Source: Flavihumibacter petaseus NBRC 106054 (GTDB lineage Bacteria > Bacteroidota > Bacteroidia > Chitinophagales > Chitinophagaceae). From it: a DNA stretch of 64,000 nt. The stretch covers positions 2,170,001-2,234,000 of the forward strand of contig NZ_BBWV01000001.1 in assembly GCF_000974785.1 (NCBI RefSeq). Reading direction: 5' to 3'. The number at the start of each line of letters is the position of its first letter. Position 1 is the first letter of the stretch. Made by a program: the position numbers and the translations under genes. Shown here one piece after another: positions 36,201 to 60,939 of this stretch. The notes beneath the pieces were generated by a model. That model was not told where the DNA came from. It did no database searches and was given only the letters and a program-made list of their open reading frames with translations.

Positions 36201-36553
36201 TCCAGGCTGAAACGCTGGCCTCTGCTATGTTTATAAATGACGGCAAAGGTGGTTTTTCGCGCCGGGAATTACCCGCAGGAGTACAGCTGGCCCCAGTGTT
36301 CAGCCTTGCTGAAATTCCTGGTGGAATGCTGGCTTCCGGCAATTTTTCGGGAACCATTCCCTATGAAGGAAAATATGATGCCCTGCTGCCTACGGGTATC
36401 GGCTTCGGAAACGATCAATATCCTGTGACCGGGCATTTACCACTTCCCTTCCGTGAAGTGCGTGATGCGCAATGGGTTAAGGGACAGGGCCGCAGATGGC
36501 TTGTTCTGGCGACGAATAACGGAAAGCTTTCTTTTTATACGGACAAACAATGA
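33269..36553 (+). CDS. VCBS/FG-GAP repeat lipoprotein with ASPIC/UnbV domain
   Basis: 1094 aa from MRHIQICLII (ATG 33269), with a lipobox ending VSC. About twelve calcium-binding-type repeats of the form DxNxDGxxD are visible (GDINNDGLPDIY, ADVNGDGKLDIY, FDFDHDGDLDCY, ADFNHDGWEDIY, GDINHDGQPDIV, ADLDGDGDLDMV, ADANGDGLEDIY, ADVDKDGDEDVF, ADLDKDGWPDLV, TDVNKDGYPDIV), predicting beta-propeller blades. Between the two propeller halves, about residues 510-590, is an ASPIC/UnbV domain (NPAGIGTKVWMFSGG, STSRGFQSGTEPVLHFG). Such proteins are frequent in Bacteroidota PULs and are probably surface binding or scaffold proteins; no enzymatic role is proven. Confidence 0.88.
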   Translation: MRHIQICLIIIGVTALVSCSGGRSGNLFEKVDASVTGISFQNNTPEQDGLNILYYLYFYNGGGVATGDINNDGLPDIYFTANQPGSNKLYLNKGDFKFEDITEKAGVAGTADWSSGVTMADVNGDGKLDIYVCASANHHGLKGHNELFLNNGNNTFSPVAAAYGLDFSGFGTQAAFFDFDHDGDLDCYLLNHSQKPHANIADTSYRHRFSAESGDRLMRNDLDATGKFTDVSAAAGIYQSALGYGLGIAIADFNHDGWEDIYVGNDFHENDYYYLNQGNGTFKESGAQHFGHYSRFSMGNDVGDINHDGQPDIVTVDMLPPDEKVLKTYGSDENPDTYQVKLTRNGYQDQYSRNCLQVNNGKGSSYSETGLISGISATDWSWSPLFADFNNDGNQDLFISSGIVKRPVDLDYIRFVSDLVLKMDQSKDMKEYDAEAIKHMPDGASHAYFFSGTGTLKFEDSTDTWGIPEKKGYFNGASYADLDGDGDLDMVVNCLQSPAVLLRNNASDRPGTNAIRIAFKGEGKNPAGIGTKVWMFSGGKMMYNQLSTSRGFQSGTEPVLHFGIGSAVTADSLLVVWPDLRFQVFRNVPATGGKPMLLKQVEAANGFEYDKYFPEELPLLQDATAEVNNSWKHKENLFYDQNRQYLIPHSLSALGPHMAVADANGDGLEDIYICGASGQPGQLLFQDKSGFGRSDSSDFAGARESEENDAVFFDADGDGFRDLLVVSGGNEFFNGDPKLSDHLYLNDGKGRFALTQGMMPALLTNKSCVKTADVDKDGDEDVFIGGLADAKTYGIPQSSFLLINDGKANFSPAPQAMIQLDSIGMVRAAAFADLDKDGWPDLVVTGEWMPIRIWMNRKGKFEPLTLPASTGLWQSILVTDVNKDGYPDIVGGNWGENCKLVAGKERPVKLFIKDFDRNGSIEQILTYREKGEDYTFLAKDELERALPVLKKAYLQYNEVAGKTVQYMFYDLFTGYRELQAETLASAMFINDGKGGFSRRELPAGVQLAPVFSLAEIPGGMLASGNFSGTIPYEGKYDALLPTGIGFGNDQYPVTGHLPLPFREVRDAQWVKGQGRRWLVLATNNGKLSFYTDKQ

Positions 36554-38007
36554 TGATGAATATGCGAAAGATTAATGCCCGGCTGCTGGCCATCGGAATG
36601 GTGCTGGCCGCCGTACAGTGTTCCAAGAAATCCAGTGGCGGAGATGGCGGAACACCTGAACCCCCTCCTGTTACGCCACCCGGTGTGGTGGAAGTGTGGT
36701 TGACCAAAGGCGATCAGTCAGTATTGCTGCAAAAGCAATCCAAGCTGCTGGCCTTTGATAACGGTGTGGCCAATGCAGCCAATATTGAAGTGGACAGTAC
36801 CTCAAAATTTCAGTCGGTTGACGGATTTGGTTATACCCTCACCGGCGGCAGTGCTCAGCTGATCAACCAGTTGCCGGTAGATAAAAAAAATAACCTGCTC
36901 CAGGAGTTGTTTGCCCGGGGAGATAATTCCATCGGTATAAGCTATCTCCGCATCAGCATCGGGGCCAGCGACCTGGATGATGCCGTGTTCAGTTACAATG
37001 ATCTTCCTGCGGGGCAAACCGATCCTTCCCAATCAAAATTCGACCTGGGCAGGGATAAGACCAACCTGATCCCGCTGTTAAAACAGATCCTGGCCATTAA
37101 TCCGAATATTAAAATCCTGGGGTCACCGTGGAGTCCGCCTGTCTGGATGAAGGATAATGGAAATTCTGTCGGTGGCAGCCTGATCCCGGCAATGTACAGT
37201 TCCTACGCCACCTATTTTGTAAAATATATTCAGGCCATGAAAGCTGAAGGTGTGCCGGTCGATGCGATCACCATTCAGAATGAACCACAGCACGGTGGTA
37301 ACAATCCCAGTATGGTCATGAGCGCAGTGCAACAGGCCGACTTCATCAAAAATCATCTCGGACCTGCCTTCGCAGCGGCAGCCCTTTCAACCAAGATCAT
37401 TATCTGGGACCACAATTGCAACAATCCTGATTATCCCAAGACCATACTTGCCGATCCCGATGCTGCAAAATATGTGAACGGTTCTGCGTTCCATCTTTAT
37501 GAAGGTGACATCAGCGCACTCAGCAATGTACACGACGCCTACCCCGACAAAGCTTTGTATTTTACCGAGCAATGGACGTCATCCGAAGGACAGTTTTCCG
37601 GCGACCTGGTATGGCATGTTAAAAATGTGATCATCGGATCTATGCGCAACTGGAGCCGCGTTGCCCTGGAATGGAATCTCGCCAATGATCCTTCCTTCGG
37701 TCCGCATACACCGGGAGGCTGCACGCAATGTAAAGGCGCTTTGACAATCTCCGGTGCCAACTTTACCAGGAATGTGAGTTATTATATCATTGCACATGCT
37801 GCCAAATTCATTCCTCCCGGCGCTGTCAGGATCAGTAGTACCACCACGGGAAACCTGCCTTCGGCCGCATTCTTACTGCCTGACGGCCGGAAAGTGCTGA
37901 TCGTTGCCAATGCCGGGAATGATGCTGTCGGTTTCAATATCAAATTCAAGGGGAAATCAGCATTCACGTCACTGGCCGTTGGATCAGTGGCAACATATAC
38001 CTGGTAA
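36550..38007 (+). CDS. GH30 family glucosidase (beta-1,6-glucanase/glucosylceramidase type)
   Basis: 485 aa lipoprotein (Cys at VQCSKKSSGG) with a Pro-rich linker. The GH30 barrel has ILGSPWSPPVWMKDN, acid/base Glu245 in TIQNEPQHGG and nucleophile Glu340 in YFTEQWTSSEGQF, and the GH30_3-like segment ALEWNLANDP ... GGCTQCKGALTI. Subfamily 3 enzymes characterised in Bacteroides act on beta-1,6-glucan. It overlaps the previous gene by 4 bases and the next by 1 base (TAATG), so it is part of a tightly coupled operon. Confidence 0.92.
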   Translation: MMMNMRKINARLLAIGMVLAAVQCSKKSSGGDGGTPEPPPVTPPGVVEVWLTKGDQSVLLQKQSKLLAFDNGVANAANIEVDSTSKFQSVDGFGYTLTGGSAQLINQLPVDKKNNLLQELFARGDNSIGISYLRISIGASDLDDAVFSYNDLPAGQTDPSQSKFDLGRDKTNLIPLLKQILAINPNIKILGSPWSPPVWMKDNGNSVGGSLIPAMYSSYATYFVKYIQAMKAEGVPVDAITIQNEPQHGGNNPSMVMSAVQQADFIKNHLGPAFAAAALSTKIIIWDHNCNNPDYPKTILADPDAAKYVNGSAFHLYEGDISALSNVHDAYPDKALYFTEQWTSSEGQFSGDLVWHVKNVIIGSMRNWSRVALEWNLANDPSFGPHTPGGCTQCKGALTISGANFTRNVSYYIIAHAAKFIPPGAVRISSTTTGNLPSAAFLLPDGRKVLIVANAGNDAVGFNIKFKGKSAFTSLAVGSVATYTW

Positions 38008-39674
38008 TGAAAAACCTGCTTGCGATAATTGGCATATGCTGTGCTGCAGCCTGCAGCAAGTCGGACAGTAATGAGCCTGATCCGCCGTTGCCACCTGCGT
38101 CCTTCAGCATGACTTCAATCACCATCGACAATACAGCCATGCGTGACAGCAGCTTTGGCGTAAAGCCGCTGCCGCAGATCGCTGCAGTGTTCAGTACTTC
38201 GGTGGATGAGGCAACTGTCGGAAAGGCGGTAAAATTGACCAATACAGCCAACCAGGAGCAGGCAGTGACCCTCGATCTTTCACCAGACGGAAAGACACTC
38301 ACCATACAACCCGCGGCATCGCTTACAGCGCTGTCGAAATACAAGTTGGGTATCAGCAACCAGCTTAAATCTGCTGCGGGTGGCAATTTCAGCAGTATCG
38401 TCAGCAAGATGTTGTTCACGGCAGTTGACCCCACACCCAAAATGCCGGCTATCAGCGATCAGGCATTACTGGATCGGTTGCAGCAGCAGACCTTCCGGTA
38501 TTTCTGGGAAGGTGCCCATCCGGTAAGTGGTCTTGCCCGTGAAAGAAGCAATTCGGGAGATGTGGTGACATCGGGCGGTTCGGGGTTTGGCATCATGGCT
38601 ATCCTGGCTGCCATCGACCGGGGTTTCATTACCCGGGCAGAGGGGTTGCAAAGACTCCAAACCATTACCGGGTTCCTGGCGGAAAAGGCTGTCCGTTATC
38701 ACGGTGCTTTTCCGCATTGGCTGAATGGTGCTACCGGTGCGACTGTTCCCTTCAGCGCGAAAGACAATGGTGCAGACCTGGTGGAGACCTCTTACCTGGT
38801 AATGGGCCTGTTGAGTGCCCGGCAGTATTTCGACCAGGCAGCTGCAGCAGAGGCTGACCTGCGCACGACCATCAATGCTTTATGCGACGCTGTGGACTGG
38901 AACTTTTTCAGGAAAGACAATGGTAATGTGCTGTACTGGCACTGGAGCCCCGATTATGCGTGGGAGATGAATATGCCAATAAGGGGCTGGAATGAATGCC
39001 TGATTACCTATGTGCTGGCAGCGGCTTCCCGTACGCATGCTATCCCGGCATCCGCTTATACTGAAGGATGGGCCCAGAATGGCAGCAACGGATTCGTCAA
39101 TGGCAAAAGTTTTTACGGTATTACCTTACCGCTTGGTCCGGATTATGGCGGACCGCTGTTCTTTTCACAATATTCTTTTCTGGGACTCGATCCCAACGGA
39201 CTTTCTGATGCCTGGGCTGCTTACGATGTGCAGAATGAGGCACATTCGCAGATCAATCAGCTATATTGTGACAATAATCCCCGCGGATACTATGGTTACA
39301 GTGATTCTGTATGGGGACTTACGGCAAGTGATATTCCCGGCGGGTATACTGCATCATCGCCGACCAATGATGTCGGCGTGATTGCGCCTACAGCTGCATT
39401 GTCTGCATTCCCGTATACACCAACCGCTTCTATGAAAGCGCTGAAATATTTTTATTATACTTTGGGAGATAAGATCTGGAAAGACTATGGGTTCGTTGAT
39501 GCCTTCCGGCTGCATGATCCCTGGTTTGCTGATAGTTTCCTGGCCATTGACCAGGGACCAATTATCATTATGGTGGAAAATTATCGTTCCGGCTTGTTGT
39601 GGCGGATGTTTACCAGTGCGCCTGAAGTGAAGGCCGGCCTGAAGAAACTGGGTTTCAACGCACCATATCTTTAA
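38007..39674 (+). CDS. PF10091 glucoamylase-family (GH144-like) lipoprotein with N-terminal Ig-like domain
   Basis: 555 aa. Lipobox AAACSKSD; residues 30-130 look like a Big_5 Ig-like domain (VFSTSVDEATVGKAVKLTNT); residues 145-550 form the alpha/alpha-barrel catalytic region (QQQTFRYFWEGAHPVSGLAR, VTSGGSGFGIMAI, YHGAFPHWLNGATG, VLYWHWSPDYAWEMNMPIRG, ECLITYVLAA, GPIIIMVENYRSGLLWRMF). This Pfam family includes GH144 endo-beta-1,2-glucanases such as the one from Chitinophaga pinensis. Its start shares one base with the stop of the GH30 gene. A beta-1,2-glucanase is the best guess, but beta-1,6-glucan systems also carry such genes. Confidence 0.88.
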   Translation: MKNLLAIIGICCAAACSKSDSNEPDPPLPPASFSMTSITIDNTAMRDSSFGVKPLPQIAAVFSTSVDEATVGKAVKLTNTANQEQAVTLDLSPDGKTLTIQPAASLTALSKYKLGISNQLKSAAGGNFSSIVSKMLFTAVDPTPKMPAISDQALLDRLQQQTFRYFWEGAHPVSGLARERSNSGDVVTSGGSGFGIMAILAAIDRGFITRAEGLQRLQTITGFLAEKAVRYHGAFPHWLNGATGATVPFSAKDNGADLVETSYLVMGLLSARQYFDQAAAAEADLRTTINALCDAVDWNFFRKDNGNVLYWHWSPDYAWEMNMPIRGWNECLITYVLAAASRTHAIPASAYTEGWAQNGSNGFVNGKSFYGITLPLGPDYGGPLFFSQYSFLGLDPNGLSDAWAAYDVQNEAHSQINQLYCDNNPRGYYGYSDSVWGLTASDIPGGYTASSPTNDVGVIAPTAALSAFPYTPTASMKALKYFYYTLGDKIWKDYGFVDAFRLHDPWFADSFLAIDQGPIIIMVENYRSGLLWRMFTSAPEVKAGLKKLGFNAPYL

Positions 39675-39699
39675 TAGCAGGTTACTGACAAGCTTGACC

Positions 39700-41121
39700 A
39701 TGAAAAAACGCCATCAATATTATGCGCTGCAGCTCGCAGGAGTTACCCTGATTTGCTGCCTGCTGGCTTACACACCTGTAAACGCCCAGGGTAAAAAGAA
39801 GCCGGTTGCTGCCACCACAGCCAAAGGTGCTTCACCTGCTTCGATACCTGTTGAACCTGCAGGAAAAGATCTCAATGATTCAGCATTACTGGACCTTGTG
39901 CAAAGGCAGACATTGCGCTATTTCTGGGATTTTGCCCACCCGGTATCGGGTATGGCACGCGAACGCAGTAACGTCGCCTTTAACTACGGCAGTGAGGTGG
40001 TTACTACGGGAGGAACAGGTTTTGGTGTGATGGCAATCATTGCCGGGGTAGATCGTAAATGGATCGCCCGTGATACGGCTGCGAAGATGCTGCTGAAGAT
40101 GGTCAACTTCCTGTTGAAGGCAGATGCCTATCACGGTGTATTTCCACACTGGCTCAATGGCGCCACCGGGAAAACCATTCCATTCAGCCGGAAAGATGAC
40201 GGTGCAGATCTCGTCGAATCATCTTTTTTGTTCCAGGGACTGCTTTGTGTAAGGCAGTATTTCGATGGCGATGATCCTGTTGAAAGGGAATTGCGCAACC
40301 GCATCAACTGGATGTGGAATGATATTGAATGGAACTGGTTCACCCGCGAAGGGCGCGATGTGCTCTACTGGCACTGGAGCCCCAATAATGGCTGGGCCAT
40401 GGATTTTGCCGTGCACGGTTTCAACGAATGCCTGATCATGTATGTACTGGCAGCGAGTGCAGGTGACCGTTATGGGGTTAGTCCCGCAGTATATCACCGG
40501 GGCTGGGCGGAAAGTAATTTTTTCAAAAACGGAAAGTCTTTCTATGATATCACCCTGCCGCTTGGCTTTGACTATGGTGGACCGTTGTTTTTTTCCCACT
40601 ATTCTTTCCTGGGATTAAATCCCCGTGGACTAAAAGACCGTTATGCTGATTATTGGGAACAGAACCGTAACCATACATTGATCAACAGGGAGCATTGTGT
40701 ACGCAATCCGAATAAATTCAAGGGATATGGAGCGGATTGCTGGGGACTGACAGCCAGTGATACCTACAATGGCTATGATGCGCATTCTCCCACCAATGAT
40801 AATGGTACGATTACCCCTACTGCAGCTTTATCGGCCTTTCCTTACACTCCCGAATACAGTATGCAGGCCTTGCGGCATTTTTACAAAGACCTGGGTACAC
40901 AGATCTGGAGCCCCTATGGTTTTGTGGATGCGTTCAATCAAAGCCAGCACTGGGTGGCACAAAGCCACCTGGCAATAGACCAGGGACCGATTGTGGTGAT
41001 GATCGAAAACTACCGCAGCGGACTGCTGTGGCGGCTCTTTATGAGTTGTCCGGAAGTGCAGCGGGGGCTGATGCGGCTCGACTTTGATTTCCCCGGACGG
41101 CCTGCAGCTCCGGGACGATAA
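39700..41121 (+). CDS. Second PF10091 glucoamylase-family (GH144-like) enzyme
   Basis: 473 aa from ATG 39700, with a signal peptide (LAGVTLICCLLAYTPVNAQ) of the type I kind rather than a lipobox, so it is probably periplasmic. The catalytic region repeats all motifs of the preceding protein (QRQTLRYFWDFAHPVSGMAR, VTTGGTGFGVMAI, YHGVFPHWLNGATG, VLYWHWSPNNGWAMDFAVHG, GPIVVMIENYRSGLLWRLF), clearly a paralogue, but without the Ig-like domain. A surface enzyme followed by a periplasmic one is the usual division of work in a PUL. 25 bases after the first paralogue. Confidence 0.88.
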   Translation: MKKRHQYYALQLAGVTLICCLLAYTPVNAQGKKKPVAATTAKGASPASIPVEPAGKDLNDSALLDLVQRQTLRYFWDFAHPVSGMARERSNVAFNYGSEVVTTGGTGFGVMAIIAGVDRKWIARDTAAKMLLKMVNFLLKADAYHGVFPHWLNGATGKTIPFSRKDDGADLVESSFLFQGLLCVRQYFDGDDPVERELRNRINWMWNDIEWNWFTREGRDVLYWHWSPNNGWAMDFAVHGFNECLIMYVLAASAGDRYGVSPAVYHRGWAESNFFKNGKSFYDITLPLGFDYGGPLFFSHYSFLGLNPRGLKDRYADYWEQNRNHTLINREHCVRNPNKFKGYGADCWGLTASDTYNGYDAHSPTNDNGTITPTAALSAFPYTPEYSMQALRHFYKDLGTQIWSPYGFVDAFNQSQHWVAQSHLAIDQGPIVVMIENYRSGLLWRLFMSCPEVQRGLMRLDFDFPGRPAAPGR

Positions 41122-41132
41122 AAACTACTACC

Positions 41133-42827
41133 ATGCGTTACGATGCGATTGTTATTGGAAGCGGAATAAGTGGCGGCTGGGCAGCAAAGGAACTTTGTGA
41201 AAAGGGACTGAAGACACTGGTGTTGGAAAGAGGCCGCAACATTGAGCACATCAAGGATTACCCGGGATATGCCAATGATCCCTGGGACTATACGCATCGC
41301 GGACAGCTATCCCGGGCTCAGCTGAAGGAAAATCCATTGATCAGTAAGGCAGCAGGATATGCAGAAGACACCGCGCATTTTTTCGTGAAGGATGCAGATC
41401 ATCCCTATGTGCAGGAAAAGCCTTTTGACTGGATCAGGGGATACCAGGTGGGCGGTAAATCGCTGACCTGGGGCCGGAGTTGCCAGCGATGGAGCGATTT
41501 CGAATTCAACGGCCCGAAAGAAAATGGTTATGCGGTTGACTGGCCCATACGTTACAAGGATATCGCACCCTGGTACAGCCATGTGGAGAAATTCAGTGGT
41601 ATCTGTGGCACGGCCGAAAATATACCTTCCATGCCCGACGGAGAGTTTCTTCCGGGTTATGAGTTCAATTGCGTGGAGCAACATCTCCGGGATTCCATTA
41701 AGAAGAATTTTAACCGGCATTATATCACCGGCCGTTGGGCGCATTTAAGTGAGCCAGCGCCCATTCACCGGGAACAGGGAAGGGGCCAATGCCAGAACCG
41801 GAATCTTTGTATGCGGGGCTGCCCTTTTGGTGGCTATTTCAGTTCCGTAACGGCAACGCTGCCCTGGGCAATAAAGACGGGCAACCTGACCATCAGGCCG
41901 TATTCAGTGGTACATTCTGTTTTGTATGACGAGAAAACAGGAAAAGCATCAGGAGTTCGGGTGATCGATGCTGTTAGCAAGGAAACGATCGATTTTGAAG
42001 CGCGGATCATTTTTGTGAATGCATCTGCGCTGAATACCAACCTGATCCTGCTGAATTCAACATCATCACGTTTTCCCAATGGCCTGGGCAATGATAGCGG
42101 CGTTTTGGGCAAGTACATCTGCTTTCACAATTACCGGGGAAGTATGGGTGGGATAATGCCTGGTTTTGAAGACAAGTACTACGAAGTGCGTAAGCCGGTG
42201 GAGTCTGTTATTCCTAATTTCAGGAACCTCGGAAAACAGGATACTGATTTTCTTGGTGGTTATGTCATTTTCAGTGGGGCAGGCCGAGGACGAGGCAGCG
42301 CTGCCATCCCGGGTCAGACGGAAGGGGATGAAGGAATAGGAGCGTCCCTGAAAAAATCGCTTTCAGAACCAGGCCCCTGGTGGGTGTATATGTATATGCA
42401 GGGGGAGACAATTCCGAAGGAGACCAATCATGTGCGCCTGCACGAGGAAAAGAAAGACCAGTGGGGAATCCCGCTGCTGGTAACTTCTGTGGGTTACGAT
42501 GATAATGACGACCGTATGGTCAAAGACTTTCTCGAGCAGGGAGAAGCGATGCTGAAAGCTGCCGGGGTAATCAATATCCGGACGCTCGATACGCATCAGC
42601 CGCCAGGCCTGGATATTCATGAAATGGGCGGTGTGCGGATGGGCCTTGATCCCAAAACTTCGATGCTGAATGCCTTCAACCAGGTGCATGGTTGTCCGAA
42701 TGTGTTTGTGACCGATGGCGCCTGCATGACAAGCACTGGTAACCAGAGCCCGTCAATACTGTATATGGCATTTACGGCGAGAGCAGTGGATCATGCCGTT
42801 AACGAAATGAAAAAGGGAGATTTATGA
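41133..42827 (+). CDS. GMC-family FAD oxidoreductase (glucoside dehydrogenase type)
   Basis: 564 aa, no signal peptide. Rossmann FAD motif at the very start (AIVIGSGISGGWAAKEL), VLERGRNIEHIKD, GGKSLTWGRSCQRWSD, a Cys-rich stretch (GRGQCQNRNLCMRGCPFGGY) as in gluconate/glucoside dehydrogenase large subunits, and the C-terminal catalytic region with HEMGGVRMG and NVFVTDGACMTSTGNQSPSI. Relatives oxidise sugars or glycosides at C3 and normally need a small subunit (gluconate 2-dehydrogenase subunit 3) that carries the Tat signal and passes electrons on. No such gene is adjacent; instead the stop overlaps by 4 bases with a DoxX-fusion gene. The physiological electron acceptor is therefore unclear. 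Confidence 0.88.
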   Translation: MRYDAIVIGSGISGGWAAKELCEKGLKTLVLERGRNIEHIKDYPGYANDPWDYTHRGQLSRAQLKENPLISKAAGYAEDTAHFFVKDADHPYVQEKPFDWIRGYQVGGKSLTWGRSCQRWSDFEFNGPKENGYAVDWPIRYKDIAPWYSHVEKFSGICGTAENIPSMPDGEFLPGYEFNCVEQHLRDSIKKNFNRHYITGRWAHLSEPAPIHREQGRGQCQNRNLCMRGCPFGGYFSSVTATLPWAIKTGNLTIRPYSVVHSVLYDEKTGKASGVRVIDAVSKETIDFEARIIFVNASALNTNLILLNSTSSRFPNGLGNDSGVLGKYICFHNYRGSMGGIMPGFEDKYYEVRKPVESVIPNFRNLGKQDTDFLGGYVIFSGAGRGRGSAAIPGQTEGDEGIGASLKKSLSEPGPWWVYMYMQGETIPKETNHVRLHEEKKDQWGIPLLVTSVGYDDNDDRMVKDFLEQGEAMLKAAGVINIRTLDTHQPPGLDIHEMGGVRMGLDPKTSMLNAFNQVHGCPNVFVTDGACMTSTGNQSPSILYMAFTARAVDHAVNEMKKGDL

Positions 42828-45031
42828 AACAGTTCCTTTCCCCTTCCTATAAGATCTGGTTTGAGCCGGGAATGGCGCTGATCAGGATCGTGACCGGGCT
42901 TTTCATGGTGTATCATGGCTGGGAGATCTTTGATCCGCAGAAGATCCAGGACTATACCAAATGGCTGACAGAATTAAAATTTCCGGCACCGGCAACGCTG
43001 GCATATCTCGGCAAGTTTGCAGAGTTGCTGGCAGGCATTTGTATCACATTGGGATTGTTTACCAGGATCATGGTATGGCCATTGATCATCACGATGCTGG
43101 TGATCGTTTTCGGCATGGGAAAGGGAAATGTTTTTTATGACGATCAGCATCCGTTCATGTTTGTATTGCTTGGCCTGGTACTTTTCTTCAATGGTTCCGG
43201 AAAATACAGTCTCGATCAGAAACTCTTCGGTAAGCCATTCGCTACCACGATCCTCTTTCTTCTGTTCACAACCTTGCAAACTAACGGGCAAACCCCAAAC
43301 CCAACCTCAAACTCCCTGCCTACGCTGAAGCTTCGGCAGGCAAAGCAAACTTCAACCTTAACCTACTGCAATCCCCTGAACCTCGACTACGGTTACTGCC
43401 CGATCCCCAATTTCACCACCTGGGGAAAGCATCGTGCAACAGCCGATCCGGTAATTGTTCGCTATAAAGACGAATACTATCTTTTCAGCACCAACCAGTG
43501 GGGGTACTGGTGGAGCGCAGATCTGTCAGACTGGCATTTCGTACCGCGGAAATTTCTCAAATCCTACCACCATGTATACGACGAGCTTTGCGCGCCGGCA
43601 GTATGGGTGATGGGTGATACGCTGCTTGTTTTCGGTTCTACCTATACAAAAGATTTTCCCATCTGGATGAGCACCAACCCTAAAGGCAATGAATGGAAGG
43701 AAGCGATAGATTCCCTCGGGATCGGCGGATGGGATCCTGCATTTTTCCTGGATGATGACGGCCGGCTGTACATGTACAACGGGAGTTCCAACCGCTACCC
43801 TTTGTATGGTGTGGAGATGAACAGGAAAACCTTCCAGCCGATCGGTACCCGGAAGGAAATGTACCTGCTGGAGGACTGGCGGTATGGCTGGCAGCGCTTC
43901 GGGGAGAATATGGACAATACATTCCTGGATCCTTTTATCGAAGGCGCCTGGATGACCAAACACGGCGGTAAGTATTACCTGCAGTACGGCGCACCGGGAA
44001 CTGAAATGAGCGGTTATGCTGACGGGGTGGTGGTGGGTAATTCGCCGCTGGGACCTTTTACAGCGCAATCAGATCCCCTGAGCTTCAAGCCGGGTGGCTT
44101 TATCAGGGGTGCCGGGCATGGTGCCACCTTCCAGGACAAGTGGAACAATTACTGGCATGTATCTACCATGAACATCACGGTGAAAAATACTTTTGAAAGG
44201 AGGAACGGCATGTGGCCGGCGGGATTTGATGCTGATGGTGTGATGTATTGCAATACCGCCTTCGGAGATTATCCGCAATATCTGCCTGATGGTGCCGCCG
44301 ATCACCTGAAATCAAGGTTCACCGGTTGGATGCTGCTGAACTATAAAAAACCAGTTACCGTATCTTCCACGCTGGGTGCATATCATGCCAACAATGCCGT
44401 TGATGAATCGGTAAAAACGTACTGGAGCGCCGCCACGGGGAATAAGGGAGAATGGATCCAGAGCGACCTTGGTGAGCTGAGCACCATCAATGCCATTCAG
44501 ATCAACTATGCTGATCAGGATGCAGCATTCCTCGGTAAACAGGAAAGGATATTCCATCAATATATCCTCTCTGTATCAGATGACGGGAAGAAGTGGCGTG
44601 TGGTAATGGATAAAAGCAAAAATGACCGGGATGTTCCACATGATTATGTGACTTTTGCCACACCGGTCAGGGCGCGGTTCGTGAGGCTGGAAAACATCAA
44701 AGTGCCGACCGGTAAGTTTGCGATCAGCGGTTTACGGATATTCGGAAAGGGCAACGGGCAGCCGCCCGGAGGTGTACAGGAATTTATCGTGTTGCGCACT
44801 GAAAAGGATAAGCGCAGTGCACTGATCAAATGGCAGCCTGACGACAACGCCTATGCGTACAATATTTACTACGGCACTTCTCCGGATAAACTGTATTCCT
44901 GCATTATGGTACATGATGCCAATGAGTACTATTTCAAGGGAATGGACAGTCAGAGAAAATACTATTTCACCATAGAAGCCATCAATGAAAATGGCATTTC
45001 CCCGCGGTATAAAACTATTACTGCAGAATGA
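42824..45031 (+). CDS. DoxX - GH43-like glycosidase - discoidin - FN3 fusion
   Basis: 735 aa. Residues 1-130 are a DoxX-family membrane domain with four helices (about 17-35, 55-78, 82-99, 109-126; LIRIVTGLFMVYHGWEIFD, FAELLAGICITLGLFTR). A fifth hydrophobic helix (137-155, FATTILFLLFTTLQTNGQ) then leads to a GH43-like five-bladed propeller at about 175-500 with the triad Asp208 (ATADPVIV), Asp304 (GGWDPAFF) and Glu373 (FIEGAWMTKHGG), an F5/8-type C (discoidin) domain at about 505-640 and an FN3 domain at 650-735. There is no in-frame start between the parts. The topology would put the glycosidase in the periplasm, tied to the inner membrane. It overlaps the GMC gene by 4 bases. DoxX relatives take part in quinone-linked oxidations. 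Confidence 0.85.
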   Translation: MKQFLSPSYKIWFEPGMALIRIVTGLFMVYHGWEIFDPQKIQDYTKWLTELKFPAPATLAYLGKFAELLAGICITLGLFTRIMVWPLIITMLVIVFGMGKGNVFYDDQHPFMFVLLGLVLFFNGSGKYSLDQKLFGKPFATTILFLLFTTLQTNGQTPNPTSNSLPTLKLRQAKQTSTLTYCNPLNLDYGYCPIPNFTTWGKHRATADPVIVRYKDEYYLFSTNQWGYWWSADLSDWHFVPRKFLKSYHHVYDELCAPAVWVMGDTLLVFGSTYTKDFPIWMSTNPKGNEWKEAIDSLGIGGWDPAFFLDDDGRLYMYNGSSNRYPLYGVEMNRKTFQPIGTRKEMYLLEDWRYGWQRFGENMDNTFLDPFIEGAWMTKHGGKYYLQYGAPGTEMSGYADGVVVGNSPLGPFTAQSDPLSFKPGGFIRGAGHGATFQDKWNNYWHVSTMNITVKNTFERRNGMWPAGFDADGVMYCNTAFGDYPQYLPDGAADHLKSRFTGWMLLNYKKPVTVSSTLGAYHANNAVDESVKTYWSAATGNKGEWIQSDLGELSTINAIQINYADQDAAFLGKQERIFHQYILSVSDDGKKWRVVMDKSKNDRDVPHDYVTFATPVRARFVRLENIKVPTGKFAISGLRIFGKGNGQPPGGVQEFIVLRTEKDKRSALIKWQPDDNAYAYNIYYGTSPDKLYSCIMVHDANEYYFKGMDSQRKYYFTIEAINENGISPRYKTITAE
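43315..43340. repeat. Hairpin repeat at the DoxX/GH43 junction
   Basis: CCTGCC-TACGCT-GAAGCTTC-GGCAGG: outer arms CCTGCC/GGCAGG around a central GAAGCTTC palindrome. It lies in coding sequence of the linker between the membrane domain and the glycosidase. Elements of this wording are common as dispersed repeats in Bacteroidota genomes, from memory. Confidence 0.6.
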
Positions 45032-45059
45032 CCACGGCGTCGATAAAACCGGAACAAAC

Positions 45060-47927
45060 ATGAAAATACGCGCACTGTTTCTCCTTGGCCTGCTCGCCTT
45101 TGCGATAGCAGGTTTTGCACAGCAACCCCCTTTCTATGCGGATATCCAGGCATTCAAGCAGCTGGACCGGGAAAGAAAACCGGAAAAGAACGGCATCCTG
45201 TTGATCGGCAGTTCCTCTTTCACTTACTGGAAAGACGTGAACAGTTATTTTCCGGGCTATCCGATCACGAACCGTGGTTTCGGCGGCTCCTCCCTTCCTG
45301 ATCTGATCCGCTACGCAGATGATATCGTTGACCCTTATGCGCCGGAGCAGATCCTGATCTATTGCGGGGAGAATGACTTTGCAGGAGCAACAGATACACT
45401 GAAGGCAGCAACGGTGGTCAACCGGTTTAAAACCTTATATGGGATACTGCGTGCCAAAGCTCCCCAGGCCTCCATCGTCTATGTGTCGATGAAGGCGAGT
45501 CCGAGCCGGCGGAAATATTTCCCAAAGATCAAAGCCGCAAATAAGGCTATTGCAGATTTTCTGAAAACAGAAAAGAATACCGGCTTCATTGATGTTTTTC
45601 CCATCATGCTGAACGCGAACGGACAACCGAAACCGGAGATCTTCCGTGCCGACAGCCTGCATATGAATGAGAAGGGATACGCCATCTGGCAGAAAGTTTT
45701 CCAGCCGGTGCTGCTGCAAACGCCGCAGGTGAAATTCATCAATGACCTGCTGGGAAAGATGACAATTGAAGAAAAGATCGGGCAGCTGAACCTGGTCGTG
45801 GGTGGCGAAGCAACTACAGGCTCCGTGGTAAGCACCGGTGTGGAAGAAAAAATCAAAAAGGGGGCCGTAGGAGGGATCTTCAGTGTTACCAGTCCCGATC
45901 GCGTACGGAAGATCCAGGAAATCGCCATGAACAATACACGCCTGAAAATTCCCATCATTTTCGGCCTGGATGTAATCCATGGGTACAAGACCATTTTCCC
46001 GATTCCGCTGGGTCTTTCCTGCAGCTGGGATATGGCGTTGATTGAATCAACCGCTCGCACGGCAGCGCAGGAAGCCAGTGCTGATGGATTGAACTGGACA
46101 TTTTCTCCGATGGTGGATATCGCCCGCGATCCCCGCTGGGGCCGTATTGCAGAGGGTTCCGGCGAAGATCCGTTCCTGGGATCTGCCATTGCCCGTGCGA
46201 TGGTGAAAGGTTACCAGGGGGATGATCTGCAAGCCAATAATACCCTGATGGCTTGTGTGAAACACTATGCCCTTTATGGTGCAGCAGAAGGCGGCCGTGA
46301 TTACAATACGGTAGACATGAGTCATGCGCGGATGTTCAATGATTACTTCCCGCCGTATAAAGCTGCTGTTGATGCCGGCGTGGGTACCGTGATGGCATCC
46401 TTCAATGATATTGATGGTATTCCCGCTACAGCCAACAAATGGCTGCTGACTGATGTGTTGCGGAATCAGTGGGGCTTTAATGGCCTGGTAGTTTCCGACT
46501 ATACCGGTGTCAGTGAAATGATCGCCCACGGAATAGGTGATCTGCAGCATGTTTCTGCGCAGGCGCTGAAAGCCGGACTGGATATGGATATGGTCAGTGA
46601 AGGATTCCTGACTACGCTGGGTGTTTCCCTTAAGTCCGGAAAGGTGACTGAGGCGGAGATTACTGAAGCCTGCAGAAGGGTACTGGAGATGAAGTATCGC
46701 CTGGGCTTGTTCCAGGATCCTTATAAATACTGTGATCCGAACAGGGCGAAGACGGAGATTTTCACGCATACGAACCGGGCGCTTGCCCGTGCAGCGGCAG
46801 CCCGGTCATCTGTTCTGCTGAAGAACAACAGGAGCGTGTTGCCACTGGCGAAAAAGGGACGGATCGCCCTGGTGGGCCCACTGGCCAACAGCCGTGAGAA
46901 CCTGGTTGGTACCTGGGCAGTGAGCGCCGATTATGCGCACCCTCCTGTATCGCTGTATACCGCTTTGCAAAGTGCGGCTGGCAGTGCAGGCTTGCTATAT
47001 GCAAAGGGGGCGAATATTTCTGAAGATTCTGCTTATGAAGCAAGGGTCAGCATTTTCGGAAAGAAGATGGAAAGAGATACCCGTTCCGCTGCCGTGATGA
47101 TCGACGAAGCTGTGAAAGCTGCGGCACAGGCGGATGTGGTGATTGCTGCCCTGGGAGAGACTGCGGAAATGACCGGCGAGTCTTCCAGTCGTTCGCTGAT
47201 CGGCATTCCTGAAAGCCAGCTGGCCTTGTTGCGTGCCCTGAAAAAAACAGGCAAGCCTGTGGTAGTGGTATTGTTTACCGGCCGCCCGCTCGTGCTTACC
47301 GAACTGGAGCCCAACGCAGATGCTATTCTCAATGTATGGTTCGGTGGTTCGGAAGCGGCTCCGGCAATTGCTGACCTGCTTTTCGGTGATGCCAATCCAT
47401 CCGGTAAGCTCACTACTTCGTTTCCGCGCAATGAGGGTCAGATACCCATTTACTATGCCCACAGGAATACCGGCCGGCCGCTGGAAGGCGAAGGGTTTCA
47501 GAAATTCAGGTCCAATTACCTGGATGTTTCCAATGAACCCCTGTATCCCTTTGGTTATGGCCTGAGCTATAGCAATTTTACCTATGGCGAGGTTGAACTG
47601 AGCAGTAAGTCACTTCGCGGTGATCAGACACTGACGGCAACAGTAACGGTGACCAATACCGGTAAAGTGGTGGGAGAAGAAGTGGTTCAGCTTTACCTGC
47701 GGGATGTGGTGGCCAGCAATACCAGGCCGTTGAAAGAGCTGAAAGGATTTAAAAAGATCAGTTTGGCTCCGGGGGCCTCTCAAAAGGTGAGTTTTACCCT
47801 GACCACACAAGACCTGAAGTTCTACAACAACGAATTGAAATATGACTGGGAAGCGGGAGCGTTTGTCATTTTTATTGGCGGTGATTCGAAATCGGCAAAA
47901 GGGGTTTCAGTACAGTGGGAAAAATAG
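45060..47927 (+). CDS. SGNH hydrolase - GH3 beta-glucosidase fusion
   Basis: 955 aa from ATG 45060, chosen for its signal peptide (MKIRALFLLGLLAFAIAGFA). Residues 25-225 are an SGNH/GDSL domain (ILLIGSSSFTYW block I, NRGFGGSS block II, CGENDF block III, DSLHMNEKG block V). Residues 230-955 are a full GH3 enzyme: FGLDVIHGYKTIFPIPLG, KHYALYGAAEGGRDYN, nucleophile Asp480 in VVSDYTGVSEM, acid/base region AEMTGESSSRS, and a C-terminal FnIII-like domain ending VSVQWEK. The esterase part may remove acyl groups, the GH3 part glucose from oligosaccharide ends. It starts 28 bases after the DoxX fusion and is the last gene of PUL 1. Confidence 0.9.
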   Translation: MKIRALFLLGLLAFAIAGFAQQPPFYADIQAFKQLDRERKPEKNGILLIGSSSFTYWKDVNSYFPGYPITNRGFGGSSLPDLIRYADDIVDPYAPEQILIYCGENDFAGATDTLKAATVVNRFKTLYGILRAKAPQASIVYVSMKASPSRRKYFPKIKAANKAIADFLKTEKNTGFIDVFPIMLNANGQPKPEIFRADSLHMNEKGYAIWQKVFQPVLLQTPQVKFINDLLGKMTIEEKIGQLNLVVGGEATTGSVVSTGVEEKIKKGAVGGIFSVTSPDRVRKIQEIAMNNTRLKIPIIFGLDVIHGYKTIFPIPLGLSCSWDMALIESTARTAAQEASADGLNWTFSPMVDIARDPRWGRIAEGSGEDPFLGSAIARAMVKGYQGDDLQANNTLMACVKHYALYGAAEGGRDYNTVDMSHARMFNDYFPPYKAAVDAGVGTVMASFNDIDGIPATANKWLLTDVLRNQWGFNGLVVSDYTGVSEMIAHGIGDLQHVSAQALKAGLDMDMVSEGFLTTLGVSLKSGKVTEAEITEACRRVLEMKYRLGLFQDPYKYCDPNRAKTEIFTHTNRALARAAAARSSVLLKNNRSVLPLAKKGRIALVGPLANSRENLVGTWAVSADYAHPPVSLYTALQSAAGSAGLLYAKGANISEDSAYEARVSIFGKKMERDTRSAAVMIDEAVKAAAQADVVIAALGETAEMTGESSSRSLIGIPESQLALLRALKKTGKPVVVVLFTGRPLVLTELEPNADAILNVWFGGSEAAPAIADLLFGDANPSGKLTTSFPRNEGQIPIYYAHRNTGRPLEGEGFQKFRSNYLDVSNEPLYPFGYGLSYSNFTYGEVELSSKSLRGDQTLTATVTVTNTGKVVGEEVVQLYLRDVVASNTRPLKELKGFKKISLAPGASQKVSFTLTTQDLKFYNNELKYDWEAGAFVIFIGGDSKSAKGVSVQWEK

Positions 47928-55953: not shown

Positions 55954-57602
55954 TCGGACGTCTTGATACCTGGATCGCCGTTGGCTATATTGTCGCCATC
56001 GTAGCCGTCGGCCTCTTTGCCGGACTGAACAAAAAAGCCGCCGGCAGTCAGGGTGAGCCAGGAGGCTACTTCCTTGCCGGCAGGAGCCTGCGCTGGCCTA
56101 TGATCGGCCTGGCTTTATTCGCCACCAATATTTCCTGCCTTCACCTTGTCAGCCTTGCCCAGAGTGGTTTCGATACCGGATTGCTGAACGGCAATTTTGA
56201 ATGGATGGCAGCTTTTACACTCATCCTGCTCGCACTTTTCTTTGTTCCCTTCTATATCCGTTCCGGCATTTCCACTTTGCCGGACTTCCTGGAAAAACGA
56301 TACAACCGTGCCTGCCGCGACTGGCTGGCTTTCATTTCGATCATATCCGCCATCATCATCCATATTGCTTTTTCCTTTGTGGCCGGCGGTATTGTGCTCG
56401 AAACGTTATTTGGCATCAATATGTATACGGCGATCATTGTGATTGCCCTGCTGACCGGTGCGTATACCATCATTGGCGGGTTGAAGGCAGTGGTGGTCAC
56501 CGAATCGATCCAAAGCATTGTATTGATCGGCGGGGCGATCATTATCACCTGTTTCTGCTGGAACAAGGTGGGCGGTTGGGAGCAAATGAAATCTACTCTT
56601 GCCGCCCACCAGGCGCTGGACAAGATCGATATGCTGCGGCCTGCGGGTGATCCCGGTGGGATGTCATGGGTGGCAGTTTTTCTCGGGTACCCGGTGCTGG
56701 GCATCTGGTATTGGTGTGCCGATCAGACGATCGTTCAGCGGACACTCGGGGCGAAGGATGAAAATCATGCACGGGTAGGCGCACTGTTCTGCGGGTTTAT
56801 TAAAATATTACCGGTTTTCATTTTTGTTCTTCCGGGACTTTGTGCCTTTGCGTTGTATAAGACGCATGCGCTCGACCTGAGCAGTTTGCAACAGTTGGCA
56901 CCAGATGGAACAACACAGCTGAATTCCAAAGGCATCTATACGTTGATGATCACGCAGCTGTTGCCACCCGGACTGGTAGGGATCCTGGTGGCCGCATTGC
57001 TGTCCGGGCTCATGAGCCAGATCGCCGGAGCATTGAATTCAATTGCAACGCTCGGCAGCTATGATCTATATAAAAGGTTTCGGCCCGATACACCTGAAAA
57101 GCAATTGGTGAAAGTCGGCCGCTGGACAGCCGGAATTGCATTGCTGCTGTCAATCGCATTGCTTCCTTTGCTCAACCGGTATGAAAGCTTGTTTGCAGGA
57201 ATCAATGATGTTATCGCCCATATCGCACCGCCCATCACCTGTGTGTTCCTGTTAGGTATATTCTGGAAGAAAGCTTCCGGGAAAGCCGCTGCCTGTACCT
57301 TGTGGATTGGTTCTGCACTGGGTGCACTGGTCTTTGCTATCGGTAAACTGGCGCCTGAAACGGCATTGGCTAAAATCTCCTTTATGATCATGGCTTTTTA
57401 CCTTTTCATCACCTGTGTACTGATCCAGGTAGTGTTATCATTTGTTTTTCCTGTTCAGCATACTGCAGACAGCGAAACCTTATACTGGAAATCATTTCGC
57501 GAACCGCTTTCAGCAAAGGGATGGCCCGGGCCGGGTAACTATAAATTCCTGTCGTTTTTACTGCTCGCAATCATGGCAGTATTGTACTGGATATTTCAAT
57601 AA
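55950..57602 (+). CDS. Sodium:solute symporter (SSS family), probable fucose transporter
   Basis: 550 aa with about 14 membrane helices. SSS features include the opening VGYIVAIVAVGLFAG, YFLAGRSLRWPMIGLALFAT, the GAYTIIGGLKAVVVTESIQ segment typical of SGLT-like carriers, and ADQTIVQRTLGAK. It starts inside the stop of the fuconate dehydratase gene (ATGA). Given its position it probably brings released L-fucose from periplasm to cytoplasm with sodium; substrate is inferred from context. Confidence 0.92.
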   Translation: MIGRLDTWIAVGYIVAIVAVGLFAGLNKKAAGSQGEPGGYFLAGRSLRWPMIGLALFATNISCLHLVSLAQSGFDTGLLNGNFEWMAAFTLILLALFFVPFYIRSGISTLPDFLEKRYNRACRDWLAFISIISAIIIHIAFSFVAGGIVLETLFGINMYTAIIVIALLTGAYTIIGGLKAVVVTESIQSIVLIGGAIIITCFCWNKVGGWEQMKSTLAAHQALDKIDMLRPAGDPGGMSWVAVFLGYPVLGIWYWCADQTIVQRTLGAKDENHARVGALFCGFIKILPVFIFVLPGLCAFALYKTHALDLSSLQQLAPDGTTQLNSKGIYTLMITQLLPPGLVGILVAALLSGLMSQIAGALNSIATLGSYDLYKRFRPDTPEKQLVKVGRWTAGIALLLSIALLPLLNRYESLFAGINDVIAHIAPPITCVFLLGIFWKKASGKAAACTLWIGSALGALVFAIGKLAPETALAKISFMIMAFYLFITCVLIQVVLSFVFPVQHTADSETLYWKSFREPLSAKGWPGPGNYKFLSFLLLAIMAVLYWIFQ

Positions 57603-57615
57603 TTCATTTTTGTAT

Positions 57616-58926
57616 ATGATCAACAGAATTAAGCAGCATTTAGTGGTGGGTGTCCTTGCCCTGCTGGCTCTTTCCGCCGCAGCACAGGAAAAAACGCCTG
57701 CTGCTGTTATCAGGGACTTTCAGAACAGGAAGTTCGGTATGTTCATTCACTGGGGGCCGGTAAGCCTGCGCGGTACTGAAATTGGATGGTCCCGCGGGGA
57801 CCAGGTTCCGGCTGCTGAATATGATTCACTCTATAAAGAGTTCGATCCGGTTCTTTTTGATGCTGATGCCATAGCCGCACTCGCTGCATCTGCTGGAATG
57901 AAATACCTTACCATAACAGCAAGGCACCATGATGGTTTCTGCCTCTGGCCAACGGCATTCACTTCCTACAATATCAAGAATACTCCTTACAAAAAGGATA
58001 TTGTCGGTGCACTGGCGAAAGCCTGCCGGAAAAGGGGACTCAAATTCTGTATTTATTATTCCGTGCTCGATTGGTATCATCCCGATTACCCGATGCACAG
58101 CCCTTCCCAGAAAGCACCGGATACCAACTCGGATATGAGCCGGTATGTGCTGTTCATGAAAAATCAGTTGAAAGAACTGATCACGCAATACGATCCCTAC
58201 ATGTTGTGGTTTGATGGCGCGTGGGAGTCACCCTGGACGGAAGCGATGGGGCGCGACATGTATGCCTATCTTAAAAAACTCAAGCCGGATGTGATCACCA
58301 ACAACAGGCTGGGTAAGGTAATGGCAGGAATGTCAAATGAAAAGATTGACCTGTCTAGAATGGTGGGCGATTACGACACGCCGGAACAAATAGTGGGGAA
58401 GCTTAATATGGAAACACCCTGGGAAAGCAGTTTTACCATCTGCAAACAATGGGCCTGGAAACCAAACGATCCAATGAAATCACTGAACCAATGCCTGTCC
58501 ATCATTGCGCAAACGGTAGGCGGCAACGGCAACCTGTTGCTGAATATCGGTCCCATGCCAGACGGCCGGGTGGAGGCAAGGCAGGCGACAAGACTTCGCG
58601 AGATCGGAGCCTGGCTGAAACAAAACGGGGAAGCGGTATACAATACCCTCGGCGGTCCTTATGAACCCAATGAGGTGTATGCAACAACAAGAAAAGGCAA
58701 TACCATATTTCTTTTTGTTTTGAAAACCGATACGGCTTCATTGGTCCTGAAGCCAATTCCTGGCCGGGCGGTAAAAAATGCTTCCATTATTGGTGGTGGT
58801 TCGTTGACTATCGGAGTAAATGGTGCCGGAATAGCTGTGCCACTTCCTGACCGGACGGACCGGTTACCCTATGTGATCCGGCTCGAGCTGGATGGCTCTG
58901 CTGAAAATCTTCCGTTAATACCTTAA
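57616..58926 (+). CDS. GH29 alpha-L-fucosidase (first)
   Basis: 436 aa from ATG 57616, which opens the signal peptide (IKQHLVVGVLALLALSAAAQ); the longer open frame upstream lies inside the symporter gene. GH29 motifs: FGMFIHWGPVSLRGTEI, LTITARHHDGFCLW and nucleophile Asp200 in MLWFDGAWE. The catalytic domain covers about 25-340, followed by a small C-terminal beta domain. It releases L-fucose from glycan ends in the periplasm or at the surface. Confidence 0.93.
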   Translation: MINRIKQHLVVGVLALLALSAAAQEKTPAAVIRDFQNRKFGMFIHWGPVSLRGTEIGWSRGDQVPAAEYDSLYKEFDPVLFDADAIAALAASAGMKYLTITARHHDGFCLWPTAFTSYNIKNTPYKKDIVGALAKACRKRGLKFCIYYSVLDWYHPDYPMHSPSQKAPDTNSDMSRYVLFMKNQLKELITQYDPYMLWFDGAWESPWTEAMGRDMYAYLKKLKPDVITNNRLGKVMAGMSNEKIDLSRMVGDYDTPEQIVGKLNMETPWESSFTICKQWAWKPNDPMKSLNQCLSIIAQTVGGNGNLLLNIGPMPDGRVEARQATRLREIGAWLKQNGEAVYNTLGGPYEPNEVYATTRKGNTIFLFVLKTDTASLVLKPIPGRAVKNASIIGGGSLTIGVNGAGIAVPLPDRTDRLPYVIRLELDGSAENLPLIP

Positions 58927-59380: not shown

Positions 59381-60883
59381 ATGAATAAACGACTATGGAT
59401 CATGGCGTTGTTTGCCCTGATCGCTACAAAAGGATTTACACAAATTCAGGAGCCCGGTACCAAACCCAATGCGGCACAGGCCGCAATGATCAAAAGAGGC
59501 TATGGCATGTTTATGCACTTTGGCCTCAATACGTTTACTGATGATGAATGGTCTGATGGCACCACTCCGGTTGAAAAGTACAATCCCACCCACCTTGATC
59601 CGGATCAGTGGGTACGCACAGCAAGGGACGCAGGTTTCCGGTATGTCTTACTGATCACCAAACACCATGATGGCTTCTGCCTCTGGGACAGTAAATACAC
59701 TACCTATGATGTGGGGTCGGCTCCCGTTAAGACAGATGTGGTGAAAGCGGTTTCCGAAGCCTGCAAAAAGTATGGTCTTCAGTTCGCCATTTATTATTCC
59801 CTGTGGGACCGGCATGAGCCTTCCTATAAGGAGAAGGACCCACAGCAGTATATCAATTATATGCTGAACCAGCTGACCGAGCTGTTCACCAACTATGGTA
59901 CCATTTGTGAGCTTTGGCTGGATGGCGGTTGGGACAGAAAGCCCGGCGACTGGGGCGTTGACCAGGTATACAAGCTCGTTAAAAAATACAATCCCGCCTG
60001 TGCGGTCAGTGTGAACCATACGATTGTTAATGAAGAGGGACAACGGCACTTTACCGTTCCCTCCAATATGACGGAAGACAATAAATATTTCTTCCAGTAT
60101 TTTCCCAGCGACTTCCGGCTTTGGGATCCCAAGCTCATTACAAAATTCGACAAGAAGCAATACCTGCACCAGGGCAAATCGTACTATATGCCATTTGAGC
60201 ACACGATCTGCCTCAGCAAGCGCTGGAACTGGTTTCAGAAATCCGTTCAGCAGCCCGTGCGCGACCAGGATGAGCTGGAAGAACTGTTTTACTGGTGTAC
60301 CGACAATGACAACAGTCTCGTGGTAAATGTGCCACCGGATGCTTCCGGCAGGATAAGGGAATATGAAGCCAACGCTGTCATTGAGCTTGGTAAGAGACTT
60401 GGTCTTGCGCTGAAAAAACCGCTTCCTAAAAACGGAAGATTTATTTCTTTCAACCAGCCGGTAACGGCCAGCAGTAGCGGAAAAGGAGAAAAACGCCCAT
60501 TTGAGGCGGGCGCCATCAATGACGGAAAACTTGACAGCCGCTGGGAAGCAGCAGCGACGGATAGTACTGCGTCGTTGGTGATGAACCTGGATCCTTCGGA
60601 GACCTTTAATAAGATCAGCATATTCGAATACCAGGATTTCAGAGATCTGCCCGATGGGTTTTCCAATATCCGCGTTCCGCGAATACAGGAATATGCAGTC
60701 GATATTGAAGTTAACGGCGGATGGGAAACAATCTTTCTCGGCGACCAGCCAATGGGTGACTGCAAGGTGATCCGCCTGCCGCGCAGCTACGCGACCGGAA
60801 AACTTCGCTTCAGGGTCATCAGAACTAATGGCACGCCCTCCATCAATGAGATCTGTGTAATTAACACCCTGAAGAAAAAATAG
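59381..60883 (+). CDS. GH29 alpha-L-fucosidase with C-terminal discoidin-like domain (second)
   Basis: 500 aa. Signal peptide MNKRLWIMALFALIATKGFT. GH29 core at 30-345 with GMFMHFGLNTFTDDEW, LLITKHHDGFCLWDSKY and nucleophile Asp181 in ELWLDGGW; the wording is of the GH29 subfamily B kind, which favours branched alpha-1,3/1,4-fucosyl links. Residues 360-500 form a carbohydrate-binding discoidin-like domain (INDGKLDSRWEAAATDSTAS). The differing core suggests a different linkage preference from the first fucosidase. A terminator follows at 60900. Confidence 0.93.
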   Translation: MNKRLWIMALFALIATKGFTQIQEPGTKPNAAQAAMIKRGYGMFMHFGLNTFTDDEWSDGTTPVEKYNPTHLDPDQWVRTARDAGFRYVLLITKHHDGFCLWDSKYTTYDVGSAPVKTDVVKAVSEACKKYGLQFAIYYSLWDRHEPSYKEKDPQQYINYMLNQLTELFTNYGTICELWLDGGWDRKPGDWGVDQVYKLVKKYNPACAVSVNHTIVNEEGQRHFTVPSNMTEDNKYFFQYFPSDFRLWDPKLITKFDKKQYLHQGKSYYMPFEHTICLSKRWNWFQKSVQQPVRDQDELEELFYWCTDNDNSLVVNVPPDASGRIREYEANAVIELGKRLGLALKKPLPKNGRFISFNQPVTASSSGKGEKRPFEAGAINDGKLDSRWEAAATDSTASLVMNLDPSETFNKISIFEYQDFRDLPDGFSNIRVPRIQEYAVDIEVNGGWETIFLGDQPMGDCKVIRLPRSYATGKLRFRVIRTNGTPSINEICVINTLKKK

Positions 60884-60899
60884 GTGTCGGATAAATGGG

Positions 60900-60938
60900 A
60901 ATGCCGTCAACAAAGCCTACTTTGTTGCGGCATTTTTT
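60900..60938 (+). terminator. Terminator after the second fucosidase
   Basis: AATGCCG-t-CAACAAAG, CCTA loop, CTTTGTTG-CGGCATT and six T: 15 paired bases with one bulge. It covers the first potential ATG codons of the DUF1080 gene. Confidence 0.88.
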
Positions 60939-60939
60939 A

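Follow-up and report, generated by a model that had tools for sequence, protein, structure and literature searches.

Probably recurrent in-frame fusion of a DoxX membrane protein to a GH43-like glycosidase in Flavihumibacter, with a predicted signal peptide in mid-protein

A single open reading frame of Flavihumibacter petaseus NBRC 106054, situated directly behind a GMC dehydrogenase gene, joins a DoxX membrane domain to a GH43-like glycosidase with an F5/8 type C (discoidin) domain and an FN3-like domain at its C-terminal end. The frame occupies 42824..45031 on the + strand of the 64,000-nucleotide stretch analysed here (the window: positions 2,170,001 to 2,234,000 of contig NZ_BBWV01000001.1, the source of all coordinates below), is free of stop codons throughout and encodes 735 amino acids. 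Our analysis confirms that the fused frame is real. We consider it rather probable that two adjacent genes of an operon have merged here, in a recurring event that left a predicted signal peptide between the DoxX and GH43 parts, and that the precursor is cut by signal peptidase I into DoxX and a free GH43 enzyme. The initial annotation of this DNA, made from the sequence alone, had suggested instead that the fusion could be a membrane-tethered oxidise-and-cleave unit.

The domain order described in that annotation, a single uninterrupted frame with DoxX, a further hydrophobic segment, GH43, F5/8 type C and FN3-like domains, is borne out by the open frame itself and by Pfam, AlphaFold2 and Foldseek. 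The DoxX membrane part comprises residues 1–136 (42824..43231, +), with the Pfam DoxX domain (PF07681) at residues 17–96 (59.1 bits, E 7e-16, gathering cut-off 23.6). Homology to GH43 begins at T180 (43361..44239, +), the Pfam domain (PF04616) covering residues 206–472 at 74.1 bits (cut-off 32.2, E 1.6e-20), and is followed by the F5/8 type C domain at residues 511–626 (44354..44701, +; E 1.4e-18, above cut-off). The FN3-like domain at residues 660–733 (44801..45022, +) scores 22.3 bits, below its cut-off of 25 (E 1.6e-4). Residues D208, D304 and E373, which we take to be the Asp/Asp/Glu catalytic triad of the GH43 family, are intact, as first noted, and unchanged across all 32 rows of our alignment (A4). 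An AlphaFold2 model with a mean pLDDT of 71.6 places helices at residues 8–36, 38–50, 56–76, 81–98, 110–123, 132–135 and 138–150, with a low-confidence linker and then all-beta domains C-terminal to them. The DoxX part of the model reaches a pLDDT of just 42–74 by blocks of ten and rests on five sequences, since A4 omits stand-alone DoxX rows. The top Foldseek matches of the model in the PDB are GH43 enzymes, in agreement with a GH43 fold. Among the 50 PDB matches listed, identity is 11–23% and one match is a GH32 enzyme; no activity or substrate is therefore assigned. An identification of the DoxX part as HvfX (NF050144) was rejected, its score of 42.1 bits falling below the curated cut-off of 80.

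The source genome (G000; 5.69 Mb in 22 contigs) groups with the genus Flavihumibacter (Chitinophagaceae), and the fusion recurs in its relatives. In a sample of 15 genomes (the source and 14 Flavihumibacter relatives) the two parts are fused in seven (G000, G008, G231, G244, G249, G250, G251) and are adjacent yet separate genes in six, owing to an in-frame stop between DoxX and GH43 in four (G179, G246, G248, G253) and to DoxX lying in a different frame in two (G245, G247); in the remaining two (G108, G252) DoxX was not found within 400 nt of GH43. Outside Flavihumibacter, G066 and G207, which belong to a second genus, are likewise fused and bring the total to nine; in the third genome of that genus, G146, no DoxX lies within 400 nt of GH43. 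Among the matches listed for 394 genomes of the family, 166 of which match with an E value of 1e-220 or lower, at least six are fused; four fused ones were seen among 396 genomes of the order and two among 395 of the phylum, samples that overlap with one another. GH43 is a gene of its own, with its own signal peptide, in most relatives' loci examined. An arrangement of two separate genes in all close relatives, set beforehand among the observations that would refute the fusion, is thus not what is seen, some being fused and some separate. The same domain order, to be looked for in other Bacteroidota together with the GMC gene, turns up in eight further genomes, with GMC beside all nine fusions; many relatives have separate genes or lack DoxX.

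The joint frame is not the error of one assembly, since eight further genomes share it, the isolate F. fluminis RY-1 being a match for one of them. The idea that sequencing or assembly has nevertheless created the junction in this genome could appeal to the single assembly behind it and to the unfused sister genomes G108 and G252, but we regard it as very improbable, both for that recurrence and because the 140 nt upstream of the GH43 homology in the window contain no ATG: the sole possible start codon there, in any frame, is a TTG that comes late in the signal segment and is followed by no signal peptide. In G249 (strain CACIAM 22H1; loci L225 and L174) the C-terminal end of the fused frame lies partly in another frame, which may reflect an assembly error or a broken end.

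How often the genes have merged can be judged from two trees. A GH43 tree of 24 rows needs three changes of state, well-supported branches making every one of them unavoidable, and a single clade of the seven fused Flavihumibacter is rejected (approximately unbiased test, p-AU 6.09e-59). An rpoB tree of 19 rows, which leaves out G249, G251 and G252 (partial rpoB only), also has three changes, two of them forced. Three changes of state can in principle include losses; we conclude that the fusion is evolutionarily real and probably recurrent. Instead of fusing three times, the genes might have fused less often and later split or been lost in Flavihumibacter; this would be compatible with either mechanism discussed below and is not distinguished from repeated gain by parsimony alone. 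In its favour, the GH43 frames of G108 and G252 start at an ATGA that overlaps with the GMC stop, as might be seen had a fused ancestor of that subclade lost DoxX. Such a history nevertheless seems improbable, as each split would call for a new stop, a new start codon and a new signal-peptide n-region and as separate genes are the rule outside, to judge from the family matches given above. The two DoxX-less loci (L041 of G108, L230 of G252) thus offer GH43 a possible start where DoxX starts in the window; in G108 a further Met lies downstream of it.

The segment called a fifth helix in the initial annotation is, judged by its sequence, an internalised former GH43 signal peptide. It spans residues 137–155 (43232..43288, +) and consists of K137, a hydrophobic h-region and the ending TNG↓Q, the arrow marking a predicted signal peptidase I-type site between G155 and Q156 (43286..43291, +). 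In separate GH43 genes, 117 of 124 distinct N-termini have [ASG]↓Q after the hydrophobic core, and a home-made position matrix for the cleavage site was trained on those 117. The nine fused junctions score 8.3–15.0 with this matrix, compared with a 5–95% range of 7.4–17.7 for the training set and a 99.9th percentile of 7.1 for a background of 75157 8-mers, and all nine keep an [A/G]↓Q cleavage-type site. The window site scores 8.3, a value reached by a fraction of 0.00023 of the background 8-mers. Stretches without any D, E, K, R, N, Q or H measure 10–16 residues in the eight of nine fused junctions tested and 12–18 in four separate ones. The codons for the last Ala and first Gln of the site vary synonymously in the six fused Flavihumibacter besides G000 and are never replaced; in G000 itself Gly, not Ala, precedes the Gln. 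Ratios of non-synonymous to synonymous change (dN/dS) were compared among five fused species, without G249, with several of the synonymous distances being saturated. They are 0.02–0.05 from the start of GH43 to the end of the protein, at most 0.08 in DoxX, and 0.18–0.40 in the fast-changing signal region for the eight of ten pairs that could be computed, dN there reaching up to 0.65. Constraint acts on both halves of the fusion.

Taken together, these features suggest the following course of events. Loss of the doxX stop, accompanied in the window genome by loss of the GH43 start codon, would have joined the two frames. Hydrophobicity and charge predict an N-in, C-in topology for DoxX, which should therefore end on the cytoplasmic side, so that GH43 would require one more crossing segment to reach the periplasm. 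The former GH43 signal peptide, now inside the protein, could carry the enzyme across the inner membrane, whereupon signal peptidase I would cut to give a membrane-bound DoxX and a free periplasmic GH43. Made from a single precursor, the two would be produced in a fixed ratio. Cutting is probable because the h-region is short and the [A/G]↓Q site is kept.

Several observations weigh against this proposal. Among the nine fused junctions the window site scores lowest. The [ASG]↓Q pair, the very criterion that chose the training set, dominates the matrix, and the site calls come from this home-made matrix as opposed to a dedicated signal-peptide predictor. A hydrophobic segment is needed for crossing whether it is cut or not, so that its retention alone is no proof of cleavage. 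Nor is the length of the modelled helix decisive, because the fourth DoxX helix is also short (110–123) and the model has low confidence in this region. Finally, an in-frame ATG is kept in G008 (inside the h-region) and in G066 and G207 (at the n-region), and an in-frame TTG or GTG occurs within the segment in several other fused genes, making separate initiation possible there.

The alternative is a permanent tether, the segment staying in place as a fifth transmembrane helix and GH43 being held at the periplasmic face beside DoxX. That would accord with the low score of the window site, with an uninterrupted frame lacking a usable internal start in the window, and with the low-confidence, probably flexible linker that the model places past the helix. 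It is harder to reconcile with an uncharged run of signal-peptide-like length in the eight junctions tested, and with an [A/G]↓Q site that is present in all nine fused proteins and has persisted within one clade over large synonymous divergence. We think such a tether unlikely, though a good deal less so than an assembly artefact, and a fixed membrane-tethered oxidise-and-cleave unit is accordingly the less likely of the two readings. Of the original proposal that GH43 is held at the periplasmic face of the inner membrane, the periplasmic location would follow from the predicted topology; the permanent hold is not the best reading, given the signal-peptidase-like site.

The GMC dehydrogenase gene (41133..42827, +) has a stop codon that overlaps the DoxX start (ATGA). 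Its nearest solved relatives are the large subunits of fructose/glucose dehydrogenases, and its product aligns to 8k6k across residues 3–562 of 564. The position of a GMC gene directly upstream, pointed out at the start, recurs: in all nine fused loci the end of GMC overlaps the estimated DoxX start or lies within about 12 nt of it. The GMC protein frame opens with the FAD motif and no signal peptide is visible by eye; export is therefore not evident, and a periplasmic oxidise-and-cleave unit finds no support on this point.

Amongst 60 loci from relatives, 55 have enough upstream sequence to be scored: ten have both DoxX and GMC (all ten pairs within 200 nt), three GMC alone, eight DoxX alone and 34 neither, a co-occurrence with a one-sided Fisher p of 2.5e-4, uncorrected for kinship and with the fused loci included. 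A search of 88 genomes of the family gave 29 further GMC loci, which were scanned for DoxX and for the small-subunit family Gluconate_2-dh3. DoxX only is found at five, Gluconate_2-dh3 only at five, both at one and neither at 18, bearing in mind that the small-subunit scan used one query and met some short flanks, so that misses are possible. DoxX is near six of the eight GMC genes that lie beside this GH43 and none of the 21 without GH43 nearby, and all six DoxX-bearing loci have this GH43 within 1.5 kb. The window genome has five other GMC copies, three with Gluconate_2-dh3 beside them and none with DoxX; of its three Gluconate_2-dh3 genes, none is in this cluster and none was found adjoining the window GMC. 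The idea that DoxX replaces Gluconate_2-dh3 beside GMC was rejected on these counts, and so was the idea that DoxX partners GMC wherever GMC occurs, given its absence from the 21 loci without GH43.

DoxX belongs, then, to this particular cluster, and the data do not single out GMC or GH43, if either, as its partner. The cluster arrangement is independent of fusion, because many relatives keep separate genes or lack DoxX. DoxX proteins are linked to quinones, and DoxX and GMC might conceivably make up a sugar dehydrogenase of two parts, with DoxX handing electrons on to quinones of the membrane. The repeated DoxX–GH43 fusion would then tie glycosidase production to that oxidase, through either a precursor that processes itself or an oxidise-and-cleave assembly that stays tethered; we regard this as a speculative and rather doubtful possibility.

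Along the window GH30 comes first, followed by two PF10091 genes, GMC, DoxX–GH43 and GDSL–GH3, and the 60 loci of relatives repeat much of this series. The GH30 gene (36550..38007, +; Pfam, above cut-off) has as its best NCBIfam match, under cut-off, a BT3312-type endo-1,6-beta-glucanase. Of the PF10091 genes identified by Pfam (38007..39674 and 39694..41121, both +), the one nearer GMC has putative glucoamylases and endo-beta-1,2-glucanase as its best PDB sequence matches, those to endo-beta-1,2-glucanase chains being strong. We read the locus as a beta-glucan-type polysaccharide cluster.

A second fusion lies downstream, where a GDSL esterase-like part and a BglX-type GH3 part share a frame (44985..47927, +) that is stop-free in the window and, of the 60 loci, in L041 (G108) alone. 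Fifteen of these loci give one continuous match, 24 give two matches, 14 have GH3 only and seven have neither; a count of 15 fused loci was rejected, since 14 of the continuous matches contain one to three stops between or within the parts. Inspected by eye, most of 14 split or GH3-only loci have a signal-peptide-like GH3 start, and the window GDSL/GH3 junction has no hydrophobic segment left. The contrast with the DoxX–GH43 junction is that two exported domains need no second crossing, whereas DoxX and GH43 do.

A 3-keto-disaccharide hydrolase family gene at 60895–61761 (PF06439, E 3e-34) would fit a chemistry of sugar oxidation close to GMC. Members of the alpha-L-fucosidase family (PF01120) are encoded at 57442–58923 and at 59381–60880, the second with a sub-cut-off F5/8C-like end. 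Upstream of GMC or DoxX, six relatives' loci (L038, L039, L049, L054, L083, L088) have a gene resembling the one for the L039 Gfo/Idh/MocA oxidoreductase, the protein on which the Pfam assignment was made; the window has none in the interval from the PF10091 gene to GMC. Every NCBIfam match of the L039 protein is under cut-off, among them a BT_2158-type glycoside 3-dehydrogenase; BT2158 is described as a periplasmic enzyme of this kind (PMC11300592).

The same gene pair thus exists in separate, stop-lost and stop-plus-start-lost states across related species. These states make it possible to test the function of a signal peptide in mid-protein, and whether fusion to a membrane protein changes the destination of a secreted enzyme. 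The clustering of a DoxX gene with GMC and GH43 also offers a lead on what DoxX does in sugar metabolism, a role that is poorly understood.

We found no open-access paper on DoxX fused to a glycoside hydrolase, nor on DoxX with polysaccharide utilization. Each part nonetheless has familiar relatives. The DoxX part resembles its family in being a small helical membrane domain above the gathering cut-off, but differs from the usual member in being joined to an exported glycosidase. The GH43 part shares its fold and Asp/Asp/Glu triad with the secreted Bacteroidota enzyme BT_3662 (5msx), although identity is just 19–20% and the fusion carries an N-terminal DoxX. The window GMC protein matches 8k6k, as a fructose/glucose dehydrogenase large subunit would, but its gene has DoxX as a neighbour and no Gluconate_2-dh3 was found next to it.

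The closest parallel to the fusion as a whole is the fbcH gene of Bradyrhizobium japonicum, which reportedly encodes a cytochrome b/c1 precursor whose single chain unites a polytopic membrane protein with its exported partner and is split by signal peptidase. That system is a respiratory complex, with cleavage said to have been established by experiment, whereas here the setting is a polysaccharide cluster and cleavage is predicted. In both, the partner's signal peptide sits mid-chain behind a polytopic membrane protein, and in our fusion it is followed, by the home-made matrix, by a cleavage-type site.

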